From positions 2,760,520 through 2,824,519 of the forward strand of contig NC_091277.1 of assembly GCF_042100115.1 (NCBI RefSeq): 64,000 nucleotides of DNA, given 5' to 3'. Positions 5,476 to 64,000 of this stretch are shown piece after piece (within the stretch, counting starts at the first letter, position 1; every line of letters begins with the position of its first letter). The stretch is from Alternaria dauci. Taxonomy: Eukaryota > Ascomycota > Dothideomycetes > Pleosporales > Pleosporaceae. The translations under genes and the position numbers were made by a program. The notes under the pieces were generated by a model. That model saw nothing but the letters and a program-made list of their open reading frames with translations. It was not told where the DNA came from and did no database searches.

Positions 5476-6304
<829 letters not shown>

Positions 6305-31030: not shown

Positions 31031-31107
31031 AATACTATAGAGGTAAACAGTACTACTAGTATAGGGTTAGAGGTAGGATAGTAGCTATAGGGGTCTACCC
31101 CTAGGGG

Positions 31108-31660
31108 TAAGATAGTATCTATAGAGTACTACCCTTAGGGGCGAGATAGTAGGCGTAGAGTGCTGCCCCTAGGGGCGAGATAGTAGGCGCGGGTTGCTGC
31201 AAGTTACTGCAAGTTGCTACCCCCGGGGGCGAGATAGTAGGCGTAGAGTGCTGCCCCCAGGGGCAAGATAGTAGCCGTAGAGTGCTGCCCCCGGGGGCGA
31301 GATAGTAGCCGTAGAGTGCTGCCCCCAGGGGCGAGATAGTAGCCGTAGAGTGCTGCCCCTGGGGGCGAGATAGTAGGCGTAGAGTGCTGCCCCCGGGGGC
31401 GAGATAGTAGCCGTAGAGTGCTGCCCCCGGGGGCGAGATAGTAGCCGTAGAGTGCTGCCCCCAGGGGCGAGATAGTAGGCGCGGGTTGCGGCAAGTTGCT
31501 GTAAGTTACTACCCCCGGGGGCGAGATAGTAGCCGTAGAGTGCTGCCCCCAGGGGCGAGATAGTAGGCGTAGAGTGCTGCCCCCAGGGGCGAGATAGTAG
31601 GCGCGGGTTGCGGCAAGTTGCTGTAAGTTGCTGCCCCTAGGGGCGAGATAGTAGGCGTAC
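31108..31660. repeat. 34-bp GC-rich minisatellite, array 1 of copy A
   Basis: About 15 units of a 34-bp sequence built from GTAGCCGTAGAGTGCTG, the palindrome GCCCCCGGGGGC (or the variant GCCCCCAGGGGC) and GAGATA. Three interruptions near 31,190-31,220, 31,480-31,510 and 31,600-31,632 carry GCGGGTTGC followed by GCAAGTTGC. Leftmost units are RIP-softened (CTACCCCTAGGGG). Because 34 is not a multiple of three, the long open frames on the - strand here are repeat artefacts. Confidence 0.9.
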
Positions 31661-31789
31661 ACGTAGCGCTAATGTTACTGTCGTTATGCTTGGTGAAATG
31701 CTGTGTCTGTAGATCTAATGAGTGAAATTGCACCTCCGCCTGTCTACTCTTCGTAGATGGTGCGTATAGTAGTATCTAGATAGTAGATG

Positions 31790-32140
31790 TAGAGTGCTGT
31801 AAGTTGCTGCCCCCAGGGGCGAGATAGTAGGCGTAGAGTGCTGCCCCCGGGGCGAGATAGTAGGCATAGAGTGCTGCCCCCGGGGGCGAGATAGTAGCCG
31901 TAGAGTGCTACCCCCGGGGGCGAGATAGTAGCCGTAGAGTGCTGCCCCCAGGGGCGAGATAGTAGCCGTAGAGTGCTGCCCCCGGGGGCGAGATAGTAGC
32001 CGTAGAGTGCTGCCCCCGGGGGCGAGATAGTAGCCGTAGAGTGCTGCCCCCGGGGGCGAGATAGTAGGCGTAGAGTGCTGCCCCCAGGGGCGAGATAGTA
32101 GCCGCGGATTGCCGTAAGGTGCTGCCCTTGGGGGCGAGAG
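31790..32140. repeat. 34-bp GC-rich minisatellite, array 2 of copy A
   Basis: About 10 further units of the same 34-bp repeat, separated from array 1 by about 130 bp of unrelated sequence (31,661-31,790). The last, degenerate unit (CCGCGGATTGCCG, then CTGCCCTTGGGGGCGAG) ends about 160 bp before the ATG of the ParB-like gene, and the same terminal unit is present in copy B. Confidence 0.9.
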
Positions 32141-32297
32141 TGACTAACACTCACCGCTAGACTTACAGCGGCCTATGCAAGAATAGACGGCTTCTCGCCT
32201 ACTTATACCTTGTGTAGTACCTCTCTATTGCTTTCTTACCTTCTCTTATCTCTTTTCCACTTACCTTAGTTTCTGTGTTCTTTCTAACAACGTTGCA

Positions 32298-34565
32298 ATG
32301 AAGCGCCCTCTAGCAAACGTTTTAACCAAAAACAGCAAACGGCAGCGTACGAATGATCCAGAGATTGAAGAGACAACTCCTATCCACGAACAAGCTGCGC
32401 CATACCTACTCGCTATAGCGAAGTTTCCAATCGATGCGCTTAGCGCAGAATGGAGTTTTGGTGTCAATAGGTCTATTGACACAGCACACCAGCGCCGCCT
32501 CTGCGAGATCTTTAACGAAACTGGTATTCTTCGACGAGACCCTAGCCACCAACTGCAGATTGCCTGTTCTAAGGAACACGTAGAGCAGATGCTTCATCAT
32601 CTGAAGGTGGAATTGCCAGCTCAGAGCACAGTTACTTCTGCCACGTTTGCGGATAAGGAAGGATTGGAATGGCCGTCGTTCAAGAGCTGGAAAAGCGTGA
32701 CTGGAGGGACAGCGGAACTTATTACGGGTCACCATCGTGTAGAGGCATTCAAAGAGTATCTTCGCCTTCGGCAGTTAGGAGAAGAGGAGAGGTGGTGGGT
32801 GTGCCGCATCTACGATAAAGGCGGGTGCCCCTTAACGCGCGTACTGTGAACAACAGCCCCTAACCTTTTTAGACACGCTACCACCAGACACTCGTGTTAA
32901 ACTTCGGGCGAATCGGGCCGATATTACGCTCCCTGACAATCATGGCCAGATATGGTCCGAGTTAACCAGCCTGTTCTGCACAAACGCCAATCTCTTTCAA
33001 GGCTCAAGCAAGTCAGTTGAGAAAGAGATGAGAGAGCATCTTCAGCTTAGTAGCCGCGTCAAGTTCCCAATACGGCGGCTAGTTACCCTGTGGAGAAATC
33101 AAAACTGGCAGCCCCTGCTTACGCGTTGGTGTTCTACCGCAATTGGGCAGGCAACGTTTAATCTCTCCACTTTTGAGTGGATGGCTAGTTGTCGGATAGA
33201 TGACGTATGTGTAACCCGCCGCCGAAATACTCTGACCTGTCTTGCTAATCTACTGTCTAGCATTGGTTCGCTGCGTTTGAGAACGTACTTCGCATCTCTA
33301 CATCTATTCGAAAGCAGTATGGGGTTGACGCCAGTTTAGCAGACTGGAACACGCTAGCTAGCCTGCCCCAGGCACGAAGTCCCCATGACGTACAAGACCT
33401 GTTCTACCCTGGCGAGGAGTTAGACAAGGATCCTGGCCCTTCCCATACGCGCCGGCAGGGCTTCTTCCCAACTCTAAGCAATGAGGCCTACCATGCGCTA
33501 TACTCCACTGTACTTTCAAAGCCCACACACACGTACACAAACATCCTCGCTCTCTTAAAAACCCCGAAGAAAGAGGGGAAGCTTATGAGGAGTATTATGA
33601 CCCACGTCAGCCAATGGGTAAACAGCGGATCCGCCAAGGTGTCTGACAGCGACAACAACAAACCCGCACTGCGGAAGTATCTAGTGCCCGTGCTGCAGAG
33701 CAGGCATGCCGGCCAGGCTGATCAAAAATCTCTTGACCTCCAACAAGAAGTACTGCAACACGTACAGCAAAATGCGGAAGCATTCACAAGCTCTATACTA
33801 GACCGCTATATTGACGAGTACCCAAGTGCAGAGATCAAGAACTACGGCGCACGCTTCCAGCATAAGGTGTGGAGAGAACTGCTGTCAATTGTGACCAGTT
33901 TCACAGGGCCAACCTTGCACAACAAGCACTTGGCGTGCCTAATTCAAAGCGATACCTACATAGCGCGAACGCCTACAATCGCACAAATCGCGTGTGATGC
34001 TATCTGTCAGGTCCCTGAAGTCGTCAACGAACCTGCGCTCCAGTCTACTAGGGCAGCAAACGACTTGCTAGAGACAATTCAGGTCGCAATCACTGAATGG
34101 ATGTCTAGACACACTCTAGAAGACTCTGATAATACAAGTCAAGAGGTTCCGCTGCCCGCAAGGCACTCTAACGCCGAGTCTAGCAGAGAGAGAGAGCTCA
34201 ATCTGACAGTCTCTGAAGCGGCACGTAGCGTTTCAGCACGGTCGAGTTCGGACCAGCTTACCCCAGAGCTAATTTCTCACCCCTCAACTGAGCCGCGCAT
34301 ACCCAAGGCATCCCAGCAGACCAAAGTTCAAAACAGGGGGATTGAGGACTTGAGTCTAAGCGACCTTGCTGCAGCCCGAGAGAAACACCGTCAGAAACGC
34401 ACCCTTAGCGACCAGGTAGCTGTAAAGGGCAGTGCTTCTCTAAGCGAAAAGACCCGAAAGAAACACCGTAAGAAACACACCCTTGGCGACCAGGTAGCTG
34501 TAGAGGGCAGTGCTTCTCCAAGCGAAAAGACTCGACAGAAACAACGAGGGGCTTGGAGGAAGTAA
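32298..34565 (+). CDS. ParB/DUF3723-like protein, copy A, three exons
   Basis: Model: exons 32,298-32,820, 32,873-33,204 and 33,261-34,565, giving 719 residues. Intron 2 (56 nt) is GT-AG with CTAAT. Intron 1 (52 nt, CCTAAC branch, TTTTTAG end) must begin at a GC to keep frame; without it the frame stops at 32,847-32,849. Around residue 143 is ELITGHHRVEAF, like the G-x-(H/R)-R box of ParB/sulfiredoxin-fold proteins. It is followed by ERWWVCRIYDK, a layout I associate with fungal DUF3723 proteins. The C-terminal third is low complexity with two ~30-residue basic repeats around KHR(Q/K)K and SDQVAV/GDQVAV. No signal peptide, so intracellular, probably nuclear. Function unknown; DNA binding or nucleotide-dependent clamp activity is inference from the box only. 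The gene lies just downstream of the minisatellite in both copies. Confidence 0.68.
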
Positions 34566-34723
34566 TCCGTATCTGACCCTAGCCCTAACCCAATAGACAC
34601 TGTTCCTCTCCTCTTTCCTCTGCACTGGATATTGTGATTCTCGATCATCATCTATCGATCTACCCTACAAGATCCTCAGCCCTTAGCCAACGTACTATTT
34701 TATATAATACTGTTCTTATCATC

Positions 34724-37700
34724 ATGTCTTTAGATCTTGCACAACAAAACGATAGCGATTACGATAACAGCAGTGCTGGAGAGGAGGACGGCCTGTACCA
34801 AGATGTGCAACCTGATGAGCACGATAGAGAACCTGACGAGCATGATGGAGAAGAATACCACGAGAGCAGCCTTGGGGACGAAGACGCAATAGCGAATAAT
34901 CAACTTACCTGGGCTATTGACCACAGCGGAGGTGACCACCGACTACCTGGTGAGTTTAAGAGCATCCTACTTGTACGCATATAGTAACTACGTAGTAGTG
35001 AAGGGATTTATCAAGATGATAGACAGCCCCGAATTTAACGGCAGTAAGGCTATTGGAATGCTGCAGAAGCGATACACGATAGACTACGGATCGAGGCGCG
35101 TTGGGTCCCGACCAGCCAAGCCTGAGGACAAATTTATCCCTGAGTTCCACCTCGACCTTATCATTATCATCGGCCGGCCGCTCCAACCCATTGTGAAGTT
35201 CTCTACGTTCTTCGACCACGTAACAATCAGCTTTAAACACTGGCGAGCTCCATACAGCGCTAAACACAGCCACGGACTGTCGTTTGATATGGAGCATCGT
35301 ACCTTCCGTCTTGCAAAGGGTGGAACGCGCGAATCTTGGTTTATTGTTATGCACCCTGTCGATAGCACAGTAGACCCTCTTCTGTCAGGCAGCGAACGTC
35401 GCAAACGCCGCGAGAAGGCGTCTGAGCACAGCGCTCTCAAACCCTCCCATGCCCTGTTCCTTACGTCGTACATTAAGAAAGTCTTCCTTACAGGCGTATT
35501 ACTTGGAGAGGGTGTTGAGGCTTCTTGGAAATTGGATGGACCCCAGTCGCAATCGATCTCAATCGTCAAGTGGGAAACGTTCCAGGAGCAGTTCATGGAA
35601 GGGTGGCCAGAGTACGTGCGCAAGAACACGCAGGATCCGTTCTAGACTGAGAACCTGCCAGCGTTCCATGCGTATGACTACGGGCAGAACCTTCCAATTG
35701 AGTTGTCTACTGAGCAACTCAATAGTCTGCCTAAGGAAACCCGGTTGCGCCCTGATGACGAGACGTCTGACTCTGATGACGAGACGTCTGACTCTGATGA
35801 CGAGACGTCTGACTCTGATAGCGAGACGTCTGATTCTGGGAATGATTTGTCAAACTCTGGGAATGATTTACCAAACTCTCAGAATGATTTATCTAACTCT
35901 GAAGACGCGGCGGCTAGGTCCGAAGGCGGCGCAGAGGGGGCTACGCCCCCACAGAGCGGTACACAAACAGGCGATCCAATTCCCCCGCCGCACGACCATC
36001 AACAGCCGTTTGATAACTACACACAGGATCTTCTACGCGCACTAGAGGACAAGTATAGACTGGAGAGCATTGAGACGGTCTCCTACGCGCTAGCGGTCGA
36101 CATCCACTTAATAGCATCTTCCAACCTCCCTAACGCCTCTAATGACGTCGGTGTCATTCTCGCACCTGCGCGCTGCCTCCTTGCCAATCGCAACAACGTT
36201 GTTCGCCAATACCAACACCCGCGCGACTTTACCTTCTACCCTCTTGCCTTCCATCCATCGTACGGCAACTTCTCCTCCGCGCAGCCCCCAGCATTCCTAC
36301 GCGACAACGTGCTCGCTGTAATGGAGGACAACATGAGCTATCAGAACAACGGTGCGAGCGTGTTGACTAGTGGTTATTTTCAGGCGTACTCCAACATTAA
36401 GCGAACTATACGCCATAGCCCCGGCAACTTACTTGCTACCAAGGGCATTGCCACGGCTGCCCTGACGCTGCCAGATCAGGATGGCAACCTAAACCCTCGG
36501 GTAGCGGCGAAGCGGCAGCGTTTACTGCGGAAATTGCGAGGCGAACAGACTCCTGATAACCCTACGTCTTCCCAACCGTTCGCTCGCGAGCAACAGCGGA
36601 TTAAAGCCGCTATAAAGGAAGAACTGTACGCGTTTAGGATGGAGCAAGTTCTGTCTGTGCAGGTGTCGCAGTTAGCTGACGGTCAACGGAATTTTGCGAC
36701 AGTGCTTCAACCTATCCTCCAGCTAATCCGGTACTTCTCGCTGGAACAACCTACCTACATTGATGTCCTCTTCGCGTTCAAAGAACGCATCTTTCCAAAG
36801 GTTCTCTCCTCCTTTGCTAGTCTGTTCGCGCACGCATCAGACGAGTTTTATCGTCGCTTCAAGGCTGCTGGCTCTAAAGGGCTGCCTTTTGCCCTAGCGG
36901 AAGGTGTGGCCGCATTCGATCGCCTTGGCAGCTACTGCTTTACTGGGTTCCCCCGGTCTTTAGTGGGCTCAGTGCTCGGGCCTCTCTGCACCATAGAAAG
37001 CATTGAGCAGGGTGGGTGGCCGTTTATCGACCCCAACATGCTCAATCTGCAAGGCAGTGGCCATGCTAACCTAGTGCGTTGGCCGCGCATGGACAATGGA
37101 CGACCTATTATGATGCACGTTGCTTCCATTCGCCACCACTATGGGCCCCAGGTTGCCGCTTATTGTCACAGCGAGGTATGGTTCCGTGAGCTTGGTGGGC
37201 TCACAGGTAAAGGGCCTCGTGGCGCAGAAGAGTTCCTAGTAGAGGTGCTCGAAGAGATGTGGAAGCCGCAGACAATCGCTTTCGTAACACACCAATTCTA
37301 TCGCGCTCTGAACAAGGGCGGACGGGGCAATGCTCAAAGCGTAAGCCTAACAACACTGCAGGCACGACAGGAGGCGCAAGAGCAGGTGACGCGTTGGGCT
37401 GAAAGCGAGCACCCCTTCTCTGCAGGGTTCGTGCAATTAGCGTTTCAAATATCAGCCGCTAACACAGTACAGGGAGTACGAGTCGATCTTTCCTGTCTTT
37501 TATCCAGAAGCGACTTCGGGTTTGAGAAGCCAGACGCGACGCGACTTTGCGCAAGAGCTCTACTGGGAGTGTGTTAACAGCCATGGCCAATCTAGTAGCT
37601 ACCTCTTTTCAAAGAACGCGAGCTGGTTCACTGTGTTACGCGCTGCCGTGCAACACGCCAGGGCCAAGGCGATGAAGGAGGAATACTGGATCAGCGCCAT

Positions 37701-38599
37701 AATGTCAGCTCTAGCGGCGTGCCGCATTGACTGTGTGCCTGGTTCATACCATGGCCGATTGAGCTACCGGAGAATGACGCGGCTAGTCGGTAACGTTCCG
37801 GCCCCATCCGCTATAGCGGCGAGACCGGGCAGCCTCAAGCGGGCAGCGATTGAGGCAGTACACCAAGCAAAGCGGCGCTCGCAAACAAAGAGTACTATCG
37901 ACTTTGGTTGCCAAATCCCTTTTAACGCCATCCCGCCGCTAGTTGAAAAAGGTTTTCAGCAGTTGGACGGCCAGTTCTCAAAGTCCGGCATGAATCAGAA
38001 GGTTCGTGAACACTACCACAGAGCACGTCAGTGCCTCATCGAGTGCTTAGGTCAGCCAAAATGCGATCTAATGCTCATGTTGGTGTTAACCCTTGCATCC
38101 TCTTCAGCTACCCCTACTGTAGCGGTGAATGCGACTGAGTTTTCCAAAGGACCAACCAAGAACTCTGAAATGTTTGCGGCCGCCTTGGTAACAAGAATGC
38201 TCTGGTCTCTTCGACCAGATTACTTCCCGTCGGAGGAAGACGATGGTTGGGTGCTTTCGGTACGGGAGATGACGAAGAAGATTGGTAAGACTTCCCTAAG
38301 AGAGGCCCTTTTCCCAAGTAAGAAGCATTGCTAACATAGTACTATCTGGGGTAGAGCACAAAGGTTGCAACAACCGCTTCCTTCGACAACTGCAATGGAT
38401 TCGGGTTACTAGTGGGCGTCGAGACTCCCCAAGGAACAGCGACATAGCGATCAACTATGATTCCGTTCTTGAGAAGAGACGTACAGAGTTAATGCGACTA
38501 CGGAGCGATGCTAAAGGTTTTATTCAATGCGTGTTTGGTAGTTCTGATTATGCATGGGTTGACCGATGTCATACTATTATACAGGAGTCCCCAGTGTAG
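34724..38599 (+). pseudogene. Large unknown protein gene, copy A, nonsense-mutated
   Basis: Same four-exon structure as the intact copy B: exons 34,724-34,949, 34,996-37,385, 37,468-38,284 and 38,340-38,599. In exon 2 a TAG at 35,643-35,645 replaces the Trp codon TGG found in copy B, cutting the product to about 290 residues. The change is TpG to TpA, a RIP-type transition. Downstream reading is otherwise open, so it is a young lesion. Copy A has three DETSDSD units where B has four (21-bp unit). Reinitiation or readthrough cannot be excluded, but as written this is a pseudogene. The protein is described under copy B. Confidence 0.8.
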
Positions 38600-39367
38600 A
38601 GTAAGCTATTATAGCTTCCACTATAATTTTACATCTTCTCTCCTATAAAACACGTATATACTATATACATCTTCTATCCTATACAGCTTTTGAAGAGATT
38701 AATACACGTTACGTAGTGTTATGATTTTTTAAAATATTTCGTATTAACTGTAAATTCAGAAAAACACCAACCCCAATATTAACCGTACTATCGTTGTCGC
38801 ATGTAATCCGTTTCTTAATCTTAACTGTGTCTCTTCTCTACTATTTACATAATTAACGTAATAGTAAAAAGACGCAGGCACTAGAGAATAGAGCCTGCGA
38901 AGTCTACATTGCATTAGTGGCTGAAGTAGCACAGTGTAGAGGCATCCTGTTACTATTCTCCGCAGGCAAAGGTAATAGCACCTTGCGCGGCAACCTTTAA
39001 GGAAAAGAGAGGAAGCCGCTATGTGTTTCGCTCTTCTTTGTAGTTATTTGTAGATTTGTAGCCTGCGGTGTTGTTGACTTATCTGTATCGCAATACGACA
39101 GCAGCTTCCTAGCAGGCTGTAATCGTCGAGAGCCACGGTACAGCCGGTGACTTAGACGACAGACCTAGCCTAACACTAAATTGGCAAGCTTCCGCAACAC
39201 GGACGCATACACCCCACCTGCTAATAAGCACCGCTATGACTAGCAACTCTCGTCTACCTCACTACTTCCGTAGAGTGTCGCTAGAAGCTCAGCATTGTGC
39301 TCTTCGAGCCCATCACTCTTTTTCCGCAGCGCATAGTTCAGGGTCGTCAGGTAACCCGGTTTATTGT
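38600..39367. other. Intergenic region between convergent genes, with alternating 7-mers
   Basis: No gene supported. The 7-mer CGCAGGC occurs at 38,873 and 38,961, and its complement GCCTGCG at 38,893 and 39,061, making two inverted pairs. The same arrangement is in copy B. It could be terminator hairpins for the convergent genes or protein sites. Confidence 0.5.
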
Positions 39368-41230
39368 TCAACCTATAGGGCTTACAGGACAGAATAATTC
39401 AAGTACCGACATCTGTCGCAATGGCGCCGGCGATGCCGGGATACTTTCCGATGCGTCAGAATCAGTGTCATCTTCGGCTTCGCTGTCTGGAATCTCTGTT
39501 AACCCCACCGCCGTAGCTAGCGCATTCGCTTCAATGCTAAGCCTCTCCTTTCCAGCAATCGGCGCACCAGTAATTCCATCCGGCCCTAGCCAGGCTTCGA
39601 GGGCCCTGCTTGCCGTGCAAATTTCCGGCCGTTCGCGCTTCACTAGCTCAAGAAAAACATCGCGCTGGTTCTTCCGCAGCACACGCTCGAGCCAATGGTT
39701 TGAGACCTCTTCGTGGGGTATGAGCAGCAGCGATCCCCAGCCTAGAGCTTGAACTATGTCGAACCATCGTGTCGCTCGCTTTAGGCGGTAACGAAAGGCT
39801 GCGTGGTCAGATTTAGATGGTGATTGGCAAACCAGATGGACCAAATATGTGATAGCCTCTGTTCGTGCCTGGCCCTTCCCGTACCTGTTGCGAGTTCTGT
39901 CGTTACTGGCTAGACGATCAGCGACCTGGATTTCGTCGACCTTGCGAGCGTACGCCTTCCCTAGCAAAGCGAAAGCCCAGCGAGTGCCAATGTTTACAGC
40001 TGCAAGCATCGTCTCGTACCGTGTGCACATGTCCCAGGCAAAGCAGAATGCATTGTCGGCATCAGTATGAAGTGTTGCGCTACTATCCACTGACTGCGAC
40101 ATTTGCGTCTGGGTAAGAACATAACGATCTACTGGTTTTACCAAGAACGGCGTGCCCTGTTTCCGCCAATTATGCAGGAACTGCGCAGCGCTGTACTGCG
40201 AGGTTGCATTTCCAAAAGCACGCGCTTTTGCTAGCATGCTGCAGGCAGTATAGTAGGGTGTTGGCGAGGCTGTATAGAAATCAGCATCTTCCGCGACTTT
40301 TTGCTTGAAGATCCAAGAGATCGTCGGCTCATCGTCTGGCGCAATGCTGCCGTACGCCATACGTTCCTGCGCAGGCATCTTCTCAGGCGGTTCCTTTAAG
40401 CCTATCGCCTCGAGCTTTATTACACGCGATCTTTCTAGCTTTCTTGTACGCCGTAGCTCTGCAAGACGATTCTTGTTTGTAACTGTTGCGGACCTCTTTA
40501 CGGATAGAGGCGTCGTCGCACTCTGGTTTTCGCTGTCCTCGTCGCTTGTTCCGCGCTCGTGTCCCCCCTCCGCTCTAGCTGTGTCTTTGCCAGCGTGTAC
40601 TGTCATAGTGTTGACTTCGCTAGCCCTAGCCGTCGATTCGTCCGCGCTGTCCTCCTGTATTGCTAGGCGGTTTAAGCTGTTGGCACGGATCTCGCTGCGA
40701 ATAGGCGATGAGGAGGCTGGACGTTTACGGTACGGCACAAGGTCGCCTGTAGCCCTCTGTGCTGATGGCGGTATGCTATCGTCCTTGTCTGAGTCTATAG
40801 CCATGCGGTCCTCCGCGATGCCTTCCGTTGGCGTCATTAGCCGCGCTGTAGTTAAGTTTCTAGGCTCTAGAGACTTACTACTAGCAAAGTCCATAGCAGC
40901 GCTTGTGAGACGCCCCCAATTTTCTGCGTCAAGTGTGCTGGCACCCAGCGTCTCTTTCAGCAGCCATATCGCATCTAGTGTCGAGTGGGCTATGAAAACC
41001 GGCTTGCACGCTTCGTCGTCGCCTACTTCTGGAACGATCCATCCCGCGTATCGTACATCGCCTGGTACACGGCATGGTTCTGCGAGACGACGCGCAAGAA
41101 ATCTGCTGTAGGACGGGTTAGGTGGGCTGTATGCTAAGTTGTTAGCGACTGTAGCGTCCCACTGTGCAGGAAAGCCTCTTCCGCTGTGTTTATCCTGACA
41201 ATGGTCACTATCGAGCTGTAACTGATCCAT
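39368..41230 (-). CDS. Unknown 620-residue protein of the module, copy A
   Basis: One uninterrupted frame, ATG at 41,230, stop at 39,368-39,370. No introns are needed. The N-terminal ~120 residues look globular (YAGWIVPEVGDDEACKPVF). A low-complexity, Ser/Asp/Arg-rich linker follows (about residues 130-260), with basic patches (RRTRKLERSR) compatible with nuclear entry. A second globular region (about 300-560) is rich in Trp, Tyr and Ala (WAFALLGKAYARKVDEIQ, RYRLKRATRWFDIVQALG). It ends in an acidic tail (DSEAEDDTDSDASES). No named domain recognised and no transposase catalytic pattern seen. It converges on the large unknown gene, and copy B carries the same 3' end, so both belong to one module. 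Confidence 0.72.
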   Translation of the reverse strand: MDQLQLDSDHCQDKHSGRGFPAQWDATVANNLAYSPPNPSYSRFLARRLAEPCRVPGDVRYAGWIVPEVGDDEACKPVFIAHSTLDAIWLLKETLGASTLDAENWGRLTSAAMDFASSKSLEPRNLTTARLMTPTEGIAEDRMAIDSDKDDSIPPSAQRATGDLVPYRKRPASSSPIRSEIRANSLNRLAIQEDSADESTARASEVNTMTVHAGKDTARAEGGHERGTSDEDSENQSATTPLSVKRSATVTNKNRLAELRRTRKLERSRVIKLEAIGLKEPPEKMPAQERMAYGSIAPDDEPTISWIFKQKVAEDADFYTASPTPYYTACSMLAKARAFGNATSQYSAAQFLHNWRKQGTPFLVKPVDRYVLTQTQMSQSVDSSATLHTDADNAFCFAWDMCTRYETMLAAVNIGTRWAFALLGKAYARKVDEIQVADRLASNDRTRNRYGKGQARTEAITYLVHLVCQSPSKSDHAAFRYRLKRATRWFDIVQALGWGSLLLIPHEEVSNHWLERVLRKNQRDVFLELVKRERPEICTASRALEAWLGPDGITGAPIAGKERLSIEANALATAVGLTEIPDSEAEDDTDSDASESIPASPAPLRQMSVLELFCPVSPIG

Positions 41231-41676
41231 TTTAGAACCAAGGCTGACGCTCTAAGCCAGCGATTAGTGTGTGGGTAGAAAAGTAGTAAGAATAACAGCA
41301 GAGAAAAGAAGACGTGGCATGGAAAGCAGGGGGCCAGGGCGTGCCGGCAAGGTGCGGCATATAGTCGCACCGACTAACAAGGTAGAGTACGGTCCCTAAT
41401 CCCAGAAGAGGTCGCGTCCTTGAGTGTAGAATACATGTTATTTCTCTTTTTAGAGTACTATTCTTATATAATATTGAATACTAAAGTTTAGTTGTTGAAG
41501 ACACGAAAGATCTCAAAGAGGTAGTCCTAGATAGGGAGGGTCGCTCTGCCTCGTACATCTAAGAGCGCAGTTCCAAATAATATAACACTAGTATTTGCCT
41601 TTAGAGGTGCAGCGTGAAGAAGGTTGGAGCGCCAGCCCTAAGGTAGTTAAAGCGTCCGAATGTTCCAGCTGCAAGG
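41231..41676. other. Upstream region of the 620-residue protein gene
   Basis: Nothing coding. The stretch 41,430-41,490 is AT-rich with TATATAATATTG, and could contain core promoter elements for the - strand gene. No repeats recognised. Confidence 0.35.
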
Positions 41677-41745: not shown

Positions 41746-41820
41746 CACGGTATGGCTTCATACACCTACTAACACCTTTTGGGCAACTCTCTGGACTGTC
41801 CAAGGTACTGCATGACAGAG

Positions 41821-42653: not shown

Positions 42654-42698
42654 GTCTGACTTTTCGGCGTAAGCCGTCGTACAAAACTATGTCATTAG

Positions 42699-53765: not shown

Positions 53766-53769
53766 CACG

Positions 53770-54490
53770 GTTGATGTTGCAGCAAGTTGAGGTTCATGTT
53801 GCAGCAAGTTGCGGTTGATGTTGCAGTAAGTTGCGGTTAATGTTGCAGCAAGTTGAGGTTCATGTTGCAGCAAGTTGCGGTTAATGTTGCAGCAAGTTGC
53901 GGTTGATGTTGCCGCAAGTTGAGGTTCATATTACAGCAAGTTGCGGTTAATGTTACAGCAAGTTGCAGTTAATGTTGCAGCAAGTTGAGGTTCATGTTGC
54001 AGCAAGTTGCGGTTGATGTTGCAGCAAGTTGAGGTTCATGTTGCAGCAAGTTGAGGTTCATGTTGCAGCAAGTTGCGGTTGATGTTGCCGCAAGTTGAGG
54101 TTCATGTTGCAGCAAGTTGCGGTTGATGTTGCAGCAAGTTGCGGTTGATGTTGCCGCAAGTTGAGGTTCATGTTGCAGCAAGTTGAGGTTTATGTTGCAG
54201 CAAGTTGAGGTTCATGTTGCAGCAAGTTGAGGTTTATGTTGCAGCAAGTTGCGGTTGATGTTGCAGCAAGTTGAGGTTTATGTTGCAGCAAGTTGAGGTT
54301 CATGTTACAGTAAGTTGCGGTTAATATTGCAGTAAGTTGCGGTTGATGTTGCCGTAAGTTAAGGTTGATGTTACAGTAAGTTAAGGTTCATGTTACAGCA
54401 AGTTACGGTTTATATTATAGTAAGTTAAGGTTTATATTATAGTAAGTTAAGGTTTATATTATAGTAAGTTAAGGTTTATATTATAGTAAC
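53770..54490 (+). repeat. 22-bp minisatellite with a RIP gradient
   Basis: About 32 units of 22 bp with core GTTGCAGCAAGTTG, followed by CGGTTGAT or AGGTTCAT. To the left, units keep CpA and TpG. To the right they decay to TTATAGTAAGTTAAGG, all by C to T or G to A at CpA/TpG. After 54,490 the sequence is fully AT-rich. Confidence 0.92.
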
Positions 54491-55920
54491 TTTTAATAAA
54501 TATTAAAGTTAGTATTACCTAATCTTTTAAAAATTTATATATCTATTAGTATAAATAGTTAGTAATCCTTTTACTATATCTTTAAAAAATATACTTTCTA
54601 CTAAATATATTTATAATAATTAATTTTTTTCTTTCTTATTTATTATTTAATAATATTACTATAGAAGTAATAAAACTAGACTACTTTTACTTTATAATAA
54701 TAAAGTAATAAATAAAGAAAAAGTATAAAATAAAGCTAGTTAAATTAAATTTTATTTAAATAAGTAGAATAATAAATACTAAAGTAAGAATAAAGTTATT
54801 AAGTATTTAATTAAGTAATAAGTAAAGATAGTTTAAAGCTATATTAACTAAATACTAGTTACTACTAAGTAAGACTTTCTTATATTATCTTTATAAAAGA
54901 AATTTATACTACTATATATAAAACTTAAATAAAGATTAAGAATTTATAAAGTTTTACTATAATTAAGAAACCTTTTAAAAAAAGTTATTTATTTTACTTA
55001 ACTAAGGGTAAGTATATAGTATATAGTAATATATTAAATAAGATTTTTTTACTTTTTTATTTATCTATATTCTTATATAAAGGTTTACTTAGATTTAATA
55101 ACTTTTAACTACTTTATAAAAAGAAGAAAAGAGTATAACTTATATTTAAGATAAAGATATTTATAAAGTAAAAGAATAAAATATTTAATACTTTAAAATA
55201 AAAAATATTTTATAAAAATTTAGTATTTTTTCTTTAAGAAAAAAAAGTATAATAAAGTATTAGTAACTACTAAGTATAGTTATTTAAAAAATAAGAAGTA
55301 GTTTTTTATAATTTATTATTTTATAATAACTAGTTACTTCTAATTAACTTACTATATAATAAGCTAAAGCCTAATTAGTTTATTCCTTAATAAGATCTTA
55401 GTTATATATATAAAGTATACTATTTATAAAATCTAAGTAGTAAGTAGTTTACTTAGATTCTATACTAGTATACTAGATAAATAATACTCTAAGCTACTAC
55501 CTCCTAAATAGCCTTTAGACTATAGCTTTCCTTAACTTCTTTTCTTATTTAATAAAATAATAGTATACTTATATAATAGCTCCTTAAGTATAGCCTTTTA
55601 TATACTACTTCTAACTATATAGCTATTTTTAATTAAGTAAACTAGTAGAAAGAAATAATTTTAAAAGTAGTATTTATTAAAAGTTAATAAAAGATTTAAG
55701 GTAAAAATAAATTTTTTTTTATTTTATTTAAAAAAAGAGTTTTTAAGTATTTTAAGTAATAGTTAGTATAGTTTTTTAAATCCTTTATTACTAATAGTAA
55801 GATTTATTTCTAAAGTATATAGTTTTATTATTTATATTACTATATAGCTAATAATATTATAAGAATAAAATAAATATAAACTTTACTACTATTTTACTTT
55901 AACTTTAATATAAATTAATC
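54490..55920. repeat. RIPed AT-rich spacer between module copies
   Basis: Stop-filled, TpA-rich DNA with no readable domain apart from the solo LTR at 55,355-55,602. Same style as the 11.7-31 kb block. Confidence 0.8.
55355..55602 (+). repeat. Solo LTR of the 16.5-23.0 kb element family
   Basis: Begins TATAATAAGCTAAAGCC, contains AATAGTATACTTATATAATA and GCTCCTTAAG like the paired LTRs, and ends CTTTTATA; 248 bp with a divergent middle. No internal element sequence flanks it. Confidence 0.8.
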
Positions 55921-55924
55921 TTAA

Positions 55925-56149
55925 AAGCCTTAAGTAACTAAGAAGCCCTAAGTAACTAAGAAGCCCTAAATAACTAAGAAGCCTTAAGTAACTAAGAAGC
56001 CCTAAATAACTAAGAAGCCCTAAGTAACTAAGAAGCCCTAAGTAACTAAGAAGCCTTAAGTAACTAAGAAGCCCTAAATAACTAAGAAGCCCTAAATAAC
56101 TAAGAAGCCTTAAGTAACTAAGAAGCCCTAAATAACTAAGAAGCCTTAA
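55925..56149 (+). repeat. 18-bp minisatellite
   Basis: About 12 units of TAAGTAACTAAGAAGCCC and variants (TAAATAACTAAGAAGCCT). It abuts the start of duplicated copy B and is absent at the start of copy A, where the Gypsy pol trace lies instead. Confidence 0.9.
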
Positions 56150-56211
56150 ATACTATAGAGGTAAACAGTATAACTAGCATAGGGTTAGAGGTAAGAGAGT
56201 AGCTATAGAGG

Positions 56212-56375
56212 TCTACCCCTAGGGGTAAGATAGTATCTATAGAGTACTACCCTTAGGGGCGAGATAGTAGGCGTAGAGTGCTGCCCCCAGGGGCGAGATA
56301 GTAGGCGTAGAGTGCTGCCCCCAGGGGCGAGATAGTAGCCGCGGATTGCCGTAAGGTGCTGCCCTTGGGGGCGAG
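56212..56375. repeat. 34-bp minisatellite, short array of copy B
   Basis: About four units, the first two softened (CTACCCCTAGGGG, CTACCCTTAGGGG), then two with CTGCCCCCAGGGGCGAG and the same degenerate terminal unit as copy A. Confidence 0.9.
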
Positions 56376-56534
56376 AGTGACTAACACTCACCGCTAGACT
56401 TACAGCGGCCTATGCAAGAATAGACGGCTTCTCGCCTACTTATACCTTGTGTAGTACCTCTCTATTGCTTTCTTACCTTCTCTTATCTCTTTTCCACTTA
56501 CCTTAGTTTCTGTGTTCTTTCTAACAACGTTGCA

Positions 56535-58802
56535 ATGAAGCGCCCTCTAGCAAACGTTTTAACCAAAAACAGCAAACGGCAGCGTACGAATGATCCAGAG
56601 ATTGAAGAGACAACTCCTATCCACGAACAAGCTGCGCCATACCTACTCGCTATAGCGAAGTTTCCAATCGATGCGCTTAGCGCAGAATGGAGTTTTGGTG
56701 TCAATAGGTCTATTGACACAGCACACCAGCGCCGCCTCTGCGAGATCTTTAACGAAACTGGTATTCTTCGACGAGACCCTAGCCACCAACTGCAGATTGC
56801 CTGTTCTAAGGAACACGTAGAGCAGATGCTTCATCATCTGAAGGTGGAATTGCCAGCTCAGAGCACAGTTACTTCTGCCACGTTTGCGGATAAGGAAGGA
56901 TTGGAATGGCCGTCGTTCAAGAGCTGGAAAAGCGTGACTGGAGGGACAGCGGAACTTATTACGGGTCACCATCGTGTAGAGGCATTCAAAGAGTATCTTC
57001 GCCTTCGGCAGTTAGGAGAAGAGGAGAGGTGGTGGGTGTGCCGCATCTACGATAAAGGCGGGTGCCCCTTAACGCGCGTACTGTGAACAACAGCCCCTAA
57101 CCTTTTTAGACACGCTACCACCAGACACTCGTGTTAAACTTCGGGCGAATCGGGCCGATATTACGCTCCCTGACAATCATGGCCAGATATGGTCCGAGTT
57201 AACCAGCCTGTTCTGCACAAACGCCAATCTCTTTCAAGGCTCAAGCAAGTCAGTTGAGAAAGAGATGAGAGAGCATCTTCAGCTTAGTAGCCGCGTCAAG
57301 TTCCCAATACGGCGGCTAGTTACCCTGTGGAGAAATCAAAACTGGCAGCCCCTGCTTACGCGTTGGTGTTCTACCGCAATTGGGCAGGCAACGTTTAATC
57401 TCTCCACTTTTGAGTGGATGGCTAGTTGTCGGATAGATGACGTATGTGTAACCCGCCGCCGAAATACTCTGACCTGTCTTGCTAATCTACTGTCTAGCAT
57501 TGGTTCGCTGCGTTTGAGAACGTACTTCGCATCTCTACATCTATTCGAAAGCAGTATGGGGTTGACGCCAGTTTAGCAGACTGGAACACGCTAGCTAGCC
57601 TGCCCCAGGCACGAAGTCCCCATGACGTACAAGACCTGTTCTACCCTGGCGAGGAGTTAGACAAGGATCCTGGCCCTTCCCATACGCGCCGGCAGGGCTT
57701 CTTCCCAACTCTAAGCAATGAGGCCTACCATGCGCTATACTCCACTGTACTTTCAAAGCCCACACACACGTACACAAACATCCTCGCTCTCTTAAAAACC
57801 CCGAAGAAAGAGGGGAAGCTTATGAGGAGTATTATGACCCACGTCAGCCAATGGGTAAACAGCGGATCCGCCAAGGTGTCTGACAGCGACAACAACAAAC
57901 CCGCACTGCGGAAGTATCTAGTGCCCGTGCTGCAGAGCAGGCATGCCGGCCAGGCTGATCAAAAATCTCTTGACCTCCAACAAGAAGTACTGCAACACGT
58001 ACAGCAAAATGCGGAAGCATTCACAAGCTCTATACTAGACCGCTATATTGACGAGTACCCAAGTGCAGAGATCAAGAACTACGGCGCACGCTTCCAGCAT
58101 AAGGTGTGGAGAGAACTGCTGTCAATTGTGACCAGTTTCACAGGGCCAACCTTGCACAACAAGCACTTGGCGTGCCTAATTCAAAGCGATACCTACATAG
58201 CGCGAACGCCTACAATCGCACAAATCGCGTGTGATGCTATCTGTCAGGTCCCTGAAGTCGTCAACGAACCTGCGCTCCAGTCTACTAGGGCAGCAAACGA
58301 CTTGCTAGAGACAATTCAGGTCGCAATCACTGAATGGATGTCTAGACACACTCTAGAAGACTCTGATAATACAAGTCAAGAGGTTCCGCTGCCCGCAAGG
58401 CACTCTAACGCCGAGTCTAGCAGAGAGAGAGAGCTCAATCTGACAGTCTCTGAAGCGGCACGTAGCGTTTCAGCACGGTCGAGTTCGGACCAGCTTACCC
58501 CAGAGCTAATTTCTCACCCCTCAACTGAGCCGCGCATACCCAAGGCATCCCAGCAGACCAAAGTTCAAAACAGGGGGATTGAGGACTTGAGTCTAAGCGA
58601 CCTTGCTGCAGCCCGAGAGAAACACCGTCAGAAACGCACCCTTAGCGACCAGGTAGCTGTAAAGGGCAGTGCTTCTCTAAGCGAAAAGACCCGAAAGAAA
58701 CACCGTAAGAAACACACCCTTGGCGACCAGGTAGCTGTAGAGGGCAGTGCTTCTCCAAGCGAAAAGACTCGACAGAAACAACGAGGGGCTTGGAGGAAGT
58801 AA
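56535..58802 (+). CDS. ParB/DUF3723-like protein, copy B, three exons
   Basis: Exons 56,535-57,057, 57,110-57,441 and 57,498-58,802, 719 residues, with the same GC-AG first intron as copy A. I see no coding difference from copy A by eye. The GHHRVEAF box lies at about residue 143. The GC donor in both copies means either it was duplicated with the block or it is a genuine non-canonical intron of the family. Position relative to the 34-bp array and the following large gene is also conserved. Confidence 0.68.
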
Positions 58803-58960
58803 TCCGTATCTGACCCTAGCCCTAACCCAATAGACACTGTTCCTCTCCTCTTTCCTCTGCACTGGATATTGTGATTCTCGATCATCATCTATCGATCTAC
58901 CCTACAAGATCCTCAGCCCTTAGCCAACGTACTATTTTATATAATACTGTTCTTATCATC

Positions 58961-61900
58961 ATGTCTTTAGATCTTGCACAACAAAACGATAGCGATTACG
59001 ATAACAGCAGTGCTGGAGAGGAGGACGGCCTGTACCAAGATGTGCAACCTGATGAGCACGATAGAGAACCTGACGAGCATGATGGAGAAGAATACCACGA
59101 GAGCAGCCTTGGGGACGAAGACGCAATAGCGAATAATCAACTTACCTGGGCTATTGACCACAGCGGAGGTGACCACCGACTACCTGGTGAGTTTAAGAGC
59201 ATCCTACTTGTACGCATATAGTAACTACGTAGTAGTGAAGGGATTTATCAAGATGATAGACAGCCCCGAATTTAACGGCAGTAAGGCTATTGGAATGCTG
59301 CAGAAGCGATACACGATAGACTACGGATCGAGGCGCGTTGGGTCCCGACCAGCCAAGCCTGAGGACAAATTTATCCCTGAGTTCCACCTCGACCTTATCA
59401 TTATCATCGGCCGGCCGCTCCAACCCATTGTGAAGTTCTCTACGTTCTTCGACCACGTAACAATCAGCTTTAAACACTGGCGAGCTCCATACAGCGCTAA
59501 ACACAGCCACGGACTGTCGTTTGATATGGAGCATCGTACCTTCCGTCTTGCAAAGGGTGGAACGCGCGAATCTTGGTTTATTGTTATGCACCCTGTCGAT
59601 AGCACAGTAGACCCTCTTCTGTCAGGCAGCGAACGTCGCAAACGCCGCGAGAAGGCGTCTGAGCACAGCGCTCTCAAACCCTCCCATGCCCTGTTCCTTA
59701 CGTCGTACATTAAGAAAGTCTTCCTTACAGGCGTATTACTTGGAGAGGGTGTTGAGGCTTCTTGGAAATTGGATGGACCCCAGTCGCAATCGATCTCAAT
59801 CGTCAAGTGGGAAACGTTCCAGGAGCAGTTCATGGAAGGGTGGCCAGAGTACGTGCGCAAGAACACGCAGGATCCGTTCTGGACTAAGAACCTGCCAGCG
59901 TTCCATGCGTATGACTACGGGCAGAACCTTCCAATTGAGTTGTCTACTGAGCAACTCAATAGTCTGCCTAAGGAAACCCGGTTGCGCCCTGATGACGAGA
60001 CGTCTGACTCTGATGACGAGACGTCTGACTCTGATGACGAGACGTCTGACTCTGATGACGAGACGTCTGACTCTGATAGCGAGACGTCTGATTCTAGGAA
60101 TGATTTGTCAAACTCTGGGAATGATTTACCAAACTCTCAGAATGATTTATCTAACTCTGAAGACGCGGCGGCTAGGTCCGAAGGCGGCGCAGAGGGGGCT
60201 ACGCCCCCACAGAGCGGTACACAAACAGGCGATCCAATTCCCCCGCCGCACGACCATCAACAGCCGTTTGATAACTACACACAGGATCTTCTACGCGCAC
60301 TAGAGGACAAGTATAGACTGGAGAGCATTGAGACGGTCTCCTACGCGCTAGCGGTCGACATCCACTCAATAGCATCTTCCAACCTCCCTAACGCCTCTAA
60401 TGACGTCGGTGTCATTCTCGCACCTGCGCGCTGCCTCCTTGCCAATCGCAACAACGTTGTTCGCCAATACCAACACCCGCGCGACTTTACCTTCTACCCT
60501 CTTGCCTTCCATCCATCGTACGGCAACTTCTCCTCCGCGCAGCCCCCAGCATTCCTACGCGACAACGTGCTCGCTGTAATGGAGGACAACATGAGCTATC
60601 AGAACAACGGTGCGAGCGTGTTGACTAGTGGTTATTTTCAGGCGTACTCCAACATTAAGCGAACTATACGCCATAGCCCCGGCAACTTACTTGCTACCAA
60701 GGGCATTGCCACGGCTGCCCTGACGCTGCCAGATCAGGATGGCAACCTAAACCCTCGGGTAGCGGCGAAGCGGCAGCGTTTACTGCGGAAATTGCGAGGC
60801 GAACAGACTCCTGATAACCCTACGTCTTCCCAACCGTTCGCTCGCGAGCAACAGCGGATTAAAGCCGCTATAAAGGAAGAACTGTACGCGTTTAGGATGG
60901 AGCAAGTTCTGTCTGTGCAGGTGTCGCAGTTAGCTGACGGTCAACGGAATTTTGCGACAGTGCTTCAACCTATCCTCCAGCTAATCCGGTACTTCTCGCT
61001 GGAACAACCTACCTACATTGATGTCCTCTTCGCGTTCAAAGAACGCATCTTTCCAAAGGTTCTCTCCTCCTTTGCTAGTCTGTTCGCGCACGCATCAGAC
61101 GAGTTTTATCGTCGCTTCAAGGCTGCTGGCTCTAAAGGGCTGCCTTTTGCCCTAGCGGAAGGTGTGGCCGCATTCGATCGCCTTGGCAGCTACTGCTTTA
61201 CTGGGTTCCCCCGGTCTTTAGTGGGCTCAGTGCTCGGGCCTCTCTGCACCATAGAAAGCATTGAGCAGGGTGGGTGGCCGTTTATCGACCCCAACATGCT
61301 CAATCTGCAAGGCAGTGGCCATGCTAACCTAGTGCGTTGGCCGCGCATGGACAATGGACGACCTATTATGATGCACGTTGCTTCCATTCGCCACCACTAT
61401 GGGCCCCAGGTTGCCGCTTATTGTCACAGCGAGGTATGGTTCCGTGAGCTTGGTGGGCTCACAGGTAAAGGGCCTCGTGGCGCAGAAGAGTTCCTAGTAG
61501 AGGTGCTCGAAGAGATGTGGAAGCCGCAGACAATCGCTTTCGTAACACACCAATTCTATCGCGCTCTGAACAAGGGCGGACGGGGCAATGCTCAAAGCGT
61601 AAGCCTAACAACACTGCAGGCACGACAGGAGGCGCAAGAGCAGGTGACGCGTTGGGCTGAAAGCGAGCACCCCTTCTCTGCAGGGTTCGTGCAATTAGCG
61701 TTTCAAATATCAGCCGCTAACACAGTACAGGGAGTACGAGTCGATCTTTCCTGTCTTTTATCCAGAAGCGACTTCGGGTTTGAGAAGCCAGACGCGACGC
61801 GACTTTGCGCAAGAGCTCTACTGGGAGTGTGTTAACAGCCATGGCCAATCTAGTAGCTACCTCTTTTCAAAGAACGCGAGCTGGTTCACTGTGTTACGCG

Positions 61901-62857
61901 CTGCCGTGCAACACGCCAGGGCCAAGGCGATGAAGGAGGAATACTGGATCAGCGCCATAATGTCAGCTCTAGCGGCGTGCCGCATTGACTGTGTGCCTGG
62001 TTCATACCATGGCCGATTGAGCTACCGGAGAATGACGCGGCTAGTCGGTAACGTTCCGGCCCCATCCGCTATAGCGGCGAGACCGGGCAGCCTCAAGCGG
62101 GCAGCGATTGAGGCAGTACACCAAGCAAAGCGGCGCTCGCAAACAAAGAGTACTATCGACTTTGGTTGCCAAATCCCTTTTAACGCCATCCCGCCGCTAG
62201 TTGAAAAAGGTTTTCAGCAGTTGGACGGCCAGTTCTCAAAGTCCGGCATGAATCAGAAGGTTCGTGAACACTACCACAGAGCACGTCAGTGCCTCATCGA
62301 GTGCTTAGGTCAGCCAAAATGCGATCTAATGCTCATGTTGGTGTTAACCCTTGCATCCTCTTCAGCTACCCCTACTGTAGCGGTGAATGCGACTGAGTTT
62401 TCCAAAGGACCAACCAAGAACTCTGAAATGTTTGCGGCCGCCTTGGTAACAAGAATGCTCTGGTCTCTTCGACCAGATTACTTCCCGTCGGAGGAAGACG
62501 ATGGTTGGGTGCTTTCGGTACGGGAGATGACGAAGAAGATTGGTAAGACTTCCCTAAGAGAGGCCCTTTTCCCAAGTAAGAAGCATTGCTAACATAGTAC
62601 TATCTGGGGTAGAGCACAAAGGTTGCAACAACCGCTTCCTTCGACAACTGCAATGGATTCGGGTTACTAGTGGGCGTCGAGACTCCCCAAGGAACAGCGA
62701 CATAGCGATCAACTATGATTCCGTTCTTGAGAAGAGACGTACAGAGTTAATGCGACTACGGAGCGATGCTAAAGGTTTTATTCAATGCGTGTTTGGTAGT
62801 TCTGATTATGCATGGGTTGACCGATGTCATACTATTATACAGGAGTCCCCAGTGTAG
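58961..62857 (+). CDS. Large unknown protein of the module, copy B, intact, 1,237 aa
   Basis: Exons 58,961-59,186, 59,233-61,643, 61,726-62,542 and 62,598-62,857 join in frame. Introns are 46, 82 and 55 nt, all GT-AG; the last two end GCTAACACAG and GCTAACATAG. The N terminus is acidic (DEHDREPDEHDGEEYHESS). A globular block follows (about residues 76-310; FHLDLIIIIGRPLQPIVKF, HRTFRLAKGGTRESWFIVMH). Next is an acidic repeat, DETSDSD x4. A long globular part (about 410-870) contains NNGASVLTSGYFQAYSNIKR, FRMEQVLSVQVSQLA and FDRLGSYCFTG. A basic C-terminal third follows, ending WVDRCHTIIQESPV. I recall uncharacterised fungal proteins with the NNGA...F.AYSNIKR block, but no named function. No catalytic motif of a transposase or polymerase was recognised. 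It may work with the ParB-like protein, since the two stay adjacent in both copies. Confidence 0.7.
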
Positions 62858-63625
62858 AGTAAGCTATTATAGCTTCCACTATAATTTTACATCTTCTCTC
62901 CTATAAAACACGTATATACTATATACATCTTCTATCCTATACAGCTTTTGAAGAGATTAATACACGTTACGTAGTGTTATGATTTTTTAAAATATTTCGT
63001 ATTAACTGTAAATTCAGAAAAACACCAACCCCAATATTAACCGTACTATCGTTGTCGCATGTAATCCGTTTCTTAATCTTAACTGTGTCTCTTCTCTACT
63101 ATTTACATAATTAACGTAATAGTAAAAAGACGCAGGCACTAGAGAATAGAGCCTGCGAAGTCTACATTGCATTAGTGGCTGAAGTAGCACAGTGTAGAGG
63201 CATCCTGTTACTATTCTCCGCAGGCAAAGGTAATAGCACCTTGCGCGGCAACCTTTAAGGAAAAGAGAGGAAGCCGCTATGTGTTTCGCTCTTCTTTGTA
63301 GTTATTTGTAGATTTGTAGCCTGCGGTGTTGTTGACTTATCTGTATCGCAATACGACAGCAGCTTCCTAGCAGGCTGTAATCGTCGAGAGCCACGGTACA
63401 GCCGGTGACTTAGACGACAGACCTAGCCTAACACTAAATTGGCAAGCTTCCGCAACACGGACGCATACACCCCACCTGCTAATAAGCACCGCTATGACTA
63501 GCAACTCTCGTCTACCTCACTACTTCCGTAGAGTGTCGCTAGAAGCTCAGCATTGTGCTCTTCGAGCCCATCACTCTTTTTCCGCAGCGCATAGTTCAGG
63601 GTCGTCAGGTAACCCGGTTTATTGT
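62858..63625. other. Intergenic region between convergent genes, copy B
   Basis: Same as 38,600-39,367, including the alternating CGCAGGC/GCCTGCG sites (first at 63,131-63,137). No gene seen. Confidence 0.5.
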
Positions 63626-64000
63626 TCAACCTATAGGGCTTACAGGACAGAATAATTCAAGTACCGACATCTGTCGCAATGGCGCCGGCGATGCCGGGAT
63701 ACTTTCCGATGCGTCAGAATCAGTGTCATCTTCGGCTTCGCTGTCTGGAATCTCTGTTAACCCCACCGCCGTAGCTAGCGCATTCGCTTCAATGCTAAGC
63801 CTCTCCTTTCCAGCAATCGGCGCACCAGTAATTCCATCCGGCCCTAGCCAGGCTTCGAGGGCCCTGCTTGCCGTGCAAATTTCCGGCCGTTCGCGCTTCA
63901 CTAGCTCAAGAAAAACATCGCGCTGGTTCTTCCGCAGCACACGCTCGAGCCAATGGTTTGAGACCTCTTCGTGGGGTATGAGCAGCAGCGATCCCCAGCC
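63626..64000 (-). CDS. Unknown 620-residue protein of the module, copy B, partial
   Basis: The last 124 codons of the same gene as at 39,368-41,230, with stop at 63,626-63,628 and no difference seen. The 5' part lies beyond the window end. Confidence 0.8.
   Translation of the reverse strand, partial: GWGSLLLIPHEEVSNHWLERVLRKNQRDVFLELVKRERPEICTASRALEAWLGPDGITGAPIAGKERLSIEANALATAVGLTEIPDSEAEDDTDSDASESIPASPAPLRQMSVLELFCPVSPIG

Follow-up and report, generated by a model that had tools for sequence, protein, structure and literature searches.

The last 64 kb of the 2.82-Mb contig C6 of the carrot-blight fungus Alternaria dauci (Pleosporales, section Porri), C6:2760520-2824519, is the stretch analysed here and is called the window below. 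It carries two tandem copies, A and B, of an element of about 25 kb with five genes, which recurs at chromosome ends throughout the 34.9-Mb, ten-contig genome (ends are named by contig number and L or R, for left or right). The elements start at window positions 31035 and 56153, giving a period of 25,118 bp, and copy B is incomplete because the contig stops at position 64000. The features are as follows, with RIP standing for repeat-induced point mutation.

26680..31034, no strand: flanking RIPed dispersed transposon, outside the element, cut by it and ending in the target ATA
31035..56152, + strand: element copy A, which begins at the fixed inner terminus and is cut within its own 18-bp array, where copy B joins it
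31035..31052, + strand: fixed inner terminus CTATAGAGGTAAACAGTA; ATA stands before it at each of the 42 genuine starts
31068..32104, + strand: 34-bp minisatellite with C5G5-type palindromes and RIP-like changes at its inner edge
32298..34565, + strand: gene 1, about 717 aa, two introns; a tentative model, as several splice choices fit; 36 copies plus a RIPed relic
34724..38334, + strand: gene 2, ends approximate, encoding a large protein whose fungal family has no Pfam model; 36 copies
39368..41230, - strand: gene 3, about 620 aa; 36 copies, 2 of them cut by contig ends
42703..42977, no strand: 68-bp minisatellite between genes 3 and 4
43293..48107, - strand: gene 4, SNF2/SF2-helicase-like, with a premature stop in copy A and a 72-bp coding minisatellite at 46330-46715
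48693..53213 (helicase match region given as 48624-53213), + strand: gene 5, the outermost gene, four CCHC knuckles plus a UPF1-type superfamily 1 (SF1) helicase, with C-terminal coding minisatellites
53769..54476, + strand: 22-bp minisatellite grading into a RIP-like AT-rich form
54500..55920, + strand: AT-rich tail; the 25 full-length places listed share 99-100% identity (40 of 72 candidates scored)
55925..56149, + strand: 18-bp array AAGCCCTAAGTAACTAAG, which in outermost copies ends in AAGCTGTAACCG and then (TTAGGG)n
56153..64000, + strand: element copy B, attached at ATA within the 18-bp array of copy A and cut by the contig end

A preliminary description made from the window sequence alone had reported that the first part of this module is duplicated, and the direct repeat was borne out (31957-39742 and 56194-64000, 99.4% identity over 7807 columns). 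The two copies differ by 24 single-nucleotide polymorphisms, 20 of them inside the 34-bp array, plus one 21-bp unit; the gene part accounts for the other 4. The RIPed blocks that were said to bound the unit turned out to be partly the flanking transposon and partly the element's own AT-rich tail. The AT-rich stretch at about 26.7-31.03 kb was thus rejected as a part of the element: it is a dispersed RIPed transposon, with more than 25 other genome places of at least 2 kb at 83-93% identity (29 of 279 candidates scored; the AT block at 11.4-26 kb lay outside this search).

Profile matches confirmed the predicted product of gene 5 as a UPF1/IGHMBP2-type SF1 helicase with CCHC knuckles, as the preliminary description had it (Pfam AAA_12, 3.6e-27; zf-CCHC, 1.7e-18). 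AAA_12 scored 95.6 and AAA_11 27.2 bits against cut-offs of 27 bits, and the best matches were to UPF1. Two homologues were found at E≤0.001 among 7998 scored candidates: P0001 (36% identity), the one good relative, which has the same knuckles-plus-helicase layout, and P0002, a Vezdaea protein (E 1.6e-4). For gene 4, the proposed SNF2-like ATPase remains putative: one profile, phrog_62 'DNA helicase', matched (4.5e-8) and DExx-type motifs were read by eye, but there was no Pfam match above cut-off and no meaningful PDB match, and none of 7994 candidates scored as a homologue at E≤0.001. The ParB/DUF3723-like label given to gene 1 is weak, resting on a GHHRVEA motif read by eye and a DUF3723 match of E 0.028 on exon 1 that was absent from the spliced model.

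Genes 2 and 3 encode the two proteins that had been called unknown. For gene 2 (previously put at about 1,230 aa), 194 of 8000 candidates scored as homologues at E≤0.001 (120 listed); they come from Pyrenochaeta, Fusarium, Metarhizium and metagenomes and have many invariant residues. No confident Pfam match was seen in 42 members of the family (best E 0.013, scattered) and none in P0017, and the family profile found no PDB chain at E≤10. Members from Fusarium poae, F. oxysporum and Metarhizium are among the listed family (P0003-P0122), which may mark related elements there. Gene 3 matched no family in Pfam, NCBIfam or PHROGs, and no relative of genes 2, 3 or the helicase was confirmed among the IMG/VR viral contigs.

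In copy A, premature stops interrupt genes 2 and 4, both of which are open in other copies. In-frame stops were counted in 4 of 36 copies of gene 1, 7 of 36 of gene 2, none of 36 of gene 3 and 5 of 31 of the helicase; the gene 4 frame is open for 1628-1844 aa in 27 of the 33 uncut copies and shortened in 6. Each of the five genes has intact copies in the genome.

Genome-wide searches found 36 near-identical copies of the element at 19 of the 20 chromosome ends, amounting by arithmetic (36 × about 25 kb) to roughly 0.9 Mb or 2.6% of the genome. Gene 3 is present in 34 complete and 2 cut copies, with identities that round to 100% (all 39 candidates scored). Gene 1 has 36 copies, one RIPed relic and two fragments at C9L (41 of 41 candidates scored), gene 2 has 36 copies (43 of 112), gene 4 has 34, one of them cut (38 of 68), and gene 5 has at least 31, with none listed at C2R (31 of 45). 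The lower count for gene 4 is expected, two copies being cut before they reach it. The preliminary description had treated the five genes as one unit by inference and had allowed that they might be chance neighbours if copy B ended naturally and the helicase genes stood alone elsewhere. The contig is instead cut inside copy B, complete tandem copies exist at C1R, C3R, C4L, C8R and other ends, the five genes occur together, and the 36 copies exclude chance adjacency.

By gene 3 counts, the left ends carry one copy each at C1L, C2L, C3L, C5L, C6L, C7L, C8L, C9L and C10L and 6 at C4L; the right ends carry 4 at C1R, 2 at C2R, 4 at C3R, 1 at C4R, 3 at C5R, 2 at C6R, 0 at C7R, 3 at C8R, 1 at C9R and 1 at C10R. 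The end without an element, C7R, terminates in ribosomal DNA. Copies are single or tandem, with arrays of 2-6 at seven ends; the spacing between complete neighbours in six arrays is 24,146 to 27,123 bp. The helicase gene points toward the nearest chromosome end in all 31 placed copies, and the genome-wide gene 3 search found no intact internal element. The earlier suggestion of an element for DNA maintenance or mobility, or a subtelomeric one, that fits no known class is thereby supported. At C1R, three of the four copies (C1:6954371, 7004300 and 7029572) share the same damaged gene 1 allele (3 TAG, 1 TAA), indicating that the damaged copy was itself amplified within the array.

The inner end of the element is a fixed terminus. 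A genome scan for CTATAGAGGTAAACAGTA with at most 2 mismatches gave 43 matches (37 exact), against 1 for a reversed-pattern control. Genuine starts account for 42 of them; the remaining match is internal, its sequence diverges right after the pattern, and it was regarded as a chance match. The 42 starts comprise 36 unit starts, 2 stacked starts (C4L and C9R, both inside the element's own 34-bp array) and 4 without an intact unit (C1L, C3R, C5R and C8L). All read ATA/CTATAGAGG or a near variant (the slash marks the joint); ATA directly precedes every start, and the first base C is kept in 41, the start C3R-4 having G. All lie toward chromosome ends, the farthest from a telomere being the C4L array at 156 kb and the C3R relic at about 132 kb. 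A 3-mismatch terminus scan of the window alone was uninformative (2 matches against 1.46 expected), and terminal hairpins were rejected: four stretches gave DNA-fold z-scores of 0.07 to 0.69, no better than shuffles.

The DNA that precedes this terminus varies. No two of the 23 sites compared (19 ends and the four odd starts) have the same 20-base flank. Besides ATA no position is fixed, and the only clear skew is T at position -4 in 15 of 23. The C2L and C8R flanks lie in related transposon copies, with joints five bases apart, and the paralogues of the C5R flank on C8 and C3 lie 0.8 and 0.4 kb inside relic starts. Overall, the element is joined to chromosome-end sequence, transposon relics, older elements, and its own tail and arrays.

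Native, that is unoccupied, versions of the target were found for 22 junctions: 15 flanks via paralogues, and 7 element-internal sites consisting of four tail positions, one 18-bp array site and two 34-bp array sites. Each was placed by its best match to the 24 bases preceding the joint. Eight of the 23 flanks had no usable native version (C3R, C4L, C4R, C9R and the four odd starts), C4R lying outside the search. In 20 of the 22 native targets AT occupies positions -3 and -2; at any other offset AT occurs in at most 6. By sequence, 16 read ATA and four ATT, and joined sites are invariably ATA; since the four ATT sites read ATA once joined, the last A belongs to the element. The native versions continue past the joint, and the element-bearing chromosome does not. 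Of ten other copies of the transposon that flanks copy A, nine read CCTAATA/G and run on, while here the transposon stops at the element start.

At the other end, the element is capped by the telomere. At each of the 16 ends where a telomere could be read, the outermost copy continues into (TTAGGG)n, and at 15 of them the order is 18-bp array, AAGCTGTAACCG, TTAGGG repeats; C5L, one of the 15, has an extra G, and C2L lacks six of the AAGCTGTAACCG bases. The contigs at C2R, C5R and C6R stop inside an element. At C3R, C4R, C7L and C9L the contig runs on past the telomere tract, and we took the sequence beyond for misjoins. At C3R (L020:8557-10000, L029) this is about 119 kb of other sequence that looks mitochondrial by eye, probably a misassembly; at C4R (L021:7433-10000, L030) it is about 21 kb of other DNA, a probable misjoin; at C7L (L015:1-177) it is 177 bases of other sequence; and at C9L (L017:1-3235) it is an inverted fragment of the element's inner part, representing a chimera or a fold-back event. 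The very ends of C3L (L011:1-374) and C6L (L014:1-809) consist of repeated blocks of telomere tract and 18-bp array, which record terminal recombination and are what recombining ends should show. A Telomerase_RBD domain is encoded at C8:1169027-1169472, so the element is probably no substitute for a missing telomerase.

Within arrays, 9 of the 17 tandem joints interrupt the 18-bp array of the preceding copy; the other 8 interrupt its AT-rich tail, at tail positions 893, 1068 (five times), 1308 and 1362. None of the 17 contains a TTAGGG tract, implying that the recipient end had lost its telomere, and sometimes part of the tail, and hence that worn ends are what a new copy joins. The shared joint at 1068 indicates that recombination copied arrays between C3R and C5R.

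We therefore consider it likely that the unit is a telomere-capped mobile element of about 25 kb, whose inner terminus ACTATAGAGG... is fixed, as is its outer terminus ...AAGCTGTAACCG at the ends read, and whose five genes are linked. The fixed terminus, the AT target and the loss of the native continuation were observed. Because native targets run past the joint and the occupied chromosome does not, the element probably attaches one-endedly at AT, supplying its own chromosome end.

In the mechanism that we favour as the simplest, a worn or cut chromosome end would be trimmed until a 3' ...AT(A) is exposed; these 2-3 bases would pair with the element terminus and serve as primer for copying the entire element, outer arrays included, and telomerase would then extend the TTAGGG tract. 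The template could be either RNA or DNA. The chromosome's 3' end is joined to the element's 5' start, a polarity that fits a natural 3' overhang. Repetition on element-bearing ends would build the tandem arrays, and recombination between ends would keep the copies nearly identical. As a guess, genes 1-3 may include a nicking, joining or priming enzyme, and genes 4 and 5 (SNF2-like and SF1) may assist copying by opening or remodelling DNA or RNA.

Several observations weigh against this scheme. No reverse transcriptase, transposase, tyrosine recombinase, polymerase or HUH nuclease was recognised in the 20 of the 64 element open reading frames (≥90 aa) scanned against Pfam, in keeping with the preliminary description, which had seen no transposase, integrase or tyrosine recombinase. 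The native targets are paralogues, as opposed to alleles from an element-free strain; C8R and C2L rely on one common paralogue, and the C5R flank looks like an older element. Placement in the 18-bp array is partly circular, given that ATA is found at that place in 348 of 716 units and GTA in the others. The C7L and C10L paralogues lack AT (GTA, match 21/24, and GCG, 18/24, respectively) and were counted as misses; these paralogues are diverged and may reflect later transitions. T occurs at -4 more often than expected. Finally, the array joints are not all independent, tail position 1068 being common to five, and element copies do also spread by recombination.

Two other mechanisms seemed to us unlikely, to about the same degree. 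One is a two-ended DNA transposon, for example a Helitron-like one targeting AT, that inserted near ends and whose distal flank was later replaced by break-induced replication. Helitrons likewise target AT, inserting between its two bases, and they also resemble the element in the element-borne helicase and the fixed left end (PMC4778049). The strict AT target without visible duplication, the SF1 helicase and the evident recombination between chromosome ends would all suit such an origin. Against it, there is no intact internal or two-sided copy and no start away from the ends except the one chance match; the scanned proteins gave no match to Rep or to RepHel (HUH nuclease plus helicase), the terminus ACTATAGAGG is not 5'-TC, and the helicase is closest to UPF1. 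Conversion would moreover be needed at all 19 ends, that is, more steps.

The other is a giant retroelement of the Terminon or HeT-A type, with antisense RNA reverse-transcribed onto an exposed end, either by host telomerase or by an unrecognised reverse transcriptase of the element. Retroelements commonly have CCHC knuckles, and the short AT(A) overlap and the polarity of the joint fit priming by the chromosome 3' end. Terminons, the Penelope-like giants of bdelloid rotifers, are likewise multigene and telomeric, with several open reading frames, head-to-tail arrays and base-pairing attachment to ends (PMC6431247). However, they have a Penelope-like reverse transcriptase and hammerhead motifs and attach to exposed telomeric repeats, whereas the element attaches at AT within non-telomeric DNA, no reverse transcriptase was matched in the scanned reading frames or in spliced gene 1, and an Rfam scan of window 30800-56400 (E≤1) returned 0 matches, including no hammerhead. 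Furthermore, the + strand introns predicted in genes 1 and 2 must survive any RNA stage, which only an antisense RNA allows.

It is improbable that the element is a Y'-type subtelomeric repeat with a helicase, spreading solely by homologous recombination between ends. Yeast Y' elements also lie just inside the telomere, in tandem, with a potential helicase and little divergence (PMC11042809), much as the present copies are end-restricted, helicase-bearing, tandem and near-identical, and the joints common to several copies (tail position 1068 in five) show that arrays have been copied by recombination as well. Y' elements nonetheless measure 5.2-6.7 kb with two large open reading frames, compared with about 25 kb and five genes here, and our 17 tandem joints are without telomere repeats. 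The 23 inner flanks all differ and the joint is still exact at ATA/CTATAGAGG; homology explains neither why the terminus is fixed in different DNA nor why 20 of 22 native targets have AT. Recombination of the Y' type as the sole mechanism is thus already contradicted.

Passive capture, in which microhomology end-joining would attach a fragment (linear or broken, with one end defined) without any element enzyme, is the least probable account: it would suit an overlap of only 2-3 bases, but end-joining usually trims and varies, and 41 of 42 starts keep their first base C exactly.

Other fungal systems share individual traits with the element. Telomere-linked helicase genes occur at many fungal chromosome ends (PMC12857005, PMC4522978), but the helicase in PMC4522978 is RecQ, whereas ours is of the UPF1/IGHMBP2 type with CCHC knuckles and is accompanied by four more genes; a RecQ telomere-linked helicase element was rejected on the AAA_12/AAA_11 and UPF1 best matches. 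The MoTeR and FoTeR retrotransposons are fungal and telomere-inserted and can form arrays (PMC8381367, PMC12857005). Unlike the element, FoTeRs are 4.3-7.3 kb with a reverse transcriptase, and MoTeR copies in arrays are separated by telomere repeats. Starships are giant fungal elements for which DUF3723 has been called characteristic (PMC11623301), and gene 1 has its weak match to that domain; they are typically around 100 kb, and the present element is restricted to chromosome ends. A Starship was rejected, as no tyrosine-recombinase captain was found and the first gene has no such match; a genome-wide search of this one genome with Phage_integrase gave nothing at E≤0.001, the captain model DUF3435 not having been searched genome-wide.

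The element therefore works like the telomeric elements (Y', Terminon, HeT-A) but lacks a tested defining feature of each mobile-element family compared, and the chance that it forms a separate class is substantial. It is possible, and we propose it tentatively, that eukaryotes have here a previously undescribed class of mobile element, made of DNA and carrying several genes, which uses its fixed terminus for one-ended transposition to AT dinucleotides at chromosome ends and brings its own outer arrays and telomere seed. Just as tentatively, such an element may both parasitise and repair worn ends, using an enzyme from the unknown protein families of genes 1-3. Among the literature matches listed, no titles or abstract openings described such an element, and no A. 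dauci genome paper was present; in the extract of a 12-genome Alternaria paper, which concerns section Alternaria and not section Porri, the words 'tandem' and 'helicase' occur 0 times (PMC13068351).

What sets the element apart is its precise terminus and defined target at chromosome ends, with no recognised transposition enzyme in what was scanned. Its 42 start junctions, four of them outside any intact unit, offer material for testing how chromosome ends gain sequence. If the one-ended mechanism is true, element capture would be a telomere-healing route beside telomerase and Y' recombination.

The element also has a history with RIP. A relic of gene 1 from an older copy (C8:47944-49993) aligns without gaps to window 32297-34346, with 543 C-to-T/G-to-A differences, 7 reverse transitions and 11 transversions. 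Mutated sites comprise 277 of 282 CpA (98%), 204 of 228 CpG, 34 of 312 CpT and 28 of 224 CpC. The window copy (32140-53768) shows no RIP bias (TpA/ApT 0.98, compared with 1.94 in the relic); the bias was measured on this copy, the remaining ones being nearly identical in protein. Hence the element was once a RIP target, and the present copies have been made or re-made since. RIP-like changes common to the copies are found in the element tail (TpA/ApT 1.65) and at the array edges. Dozens of near-identical copies without gene-level RIP in a heavily RIPed genome raise the question of how large repeats escape; recent asexual amplification and protection are candidate reasons.

Some minor observations concern the rest of the window. 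The 34-bp repeats (window 31215-32104), with their C5G5-type palindromes beside the ParB-like gene, could be putative iteron-like binding sites. Further inward, open reading frames for a multicopper oxidase (228-1322), a NACHT-type protein (NPHP3_N, 4686-5486) and a NucA/NucB DNase-like protein (8628-9401) were found.

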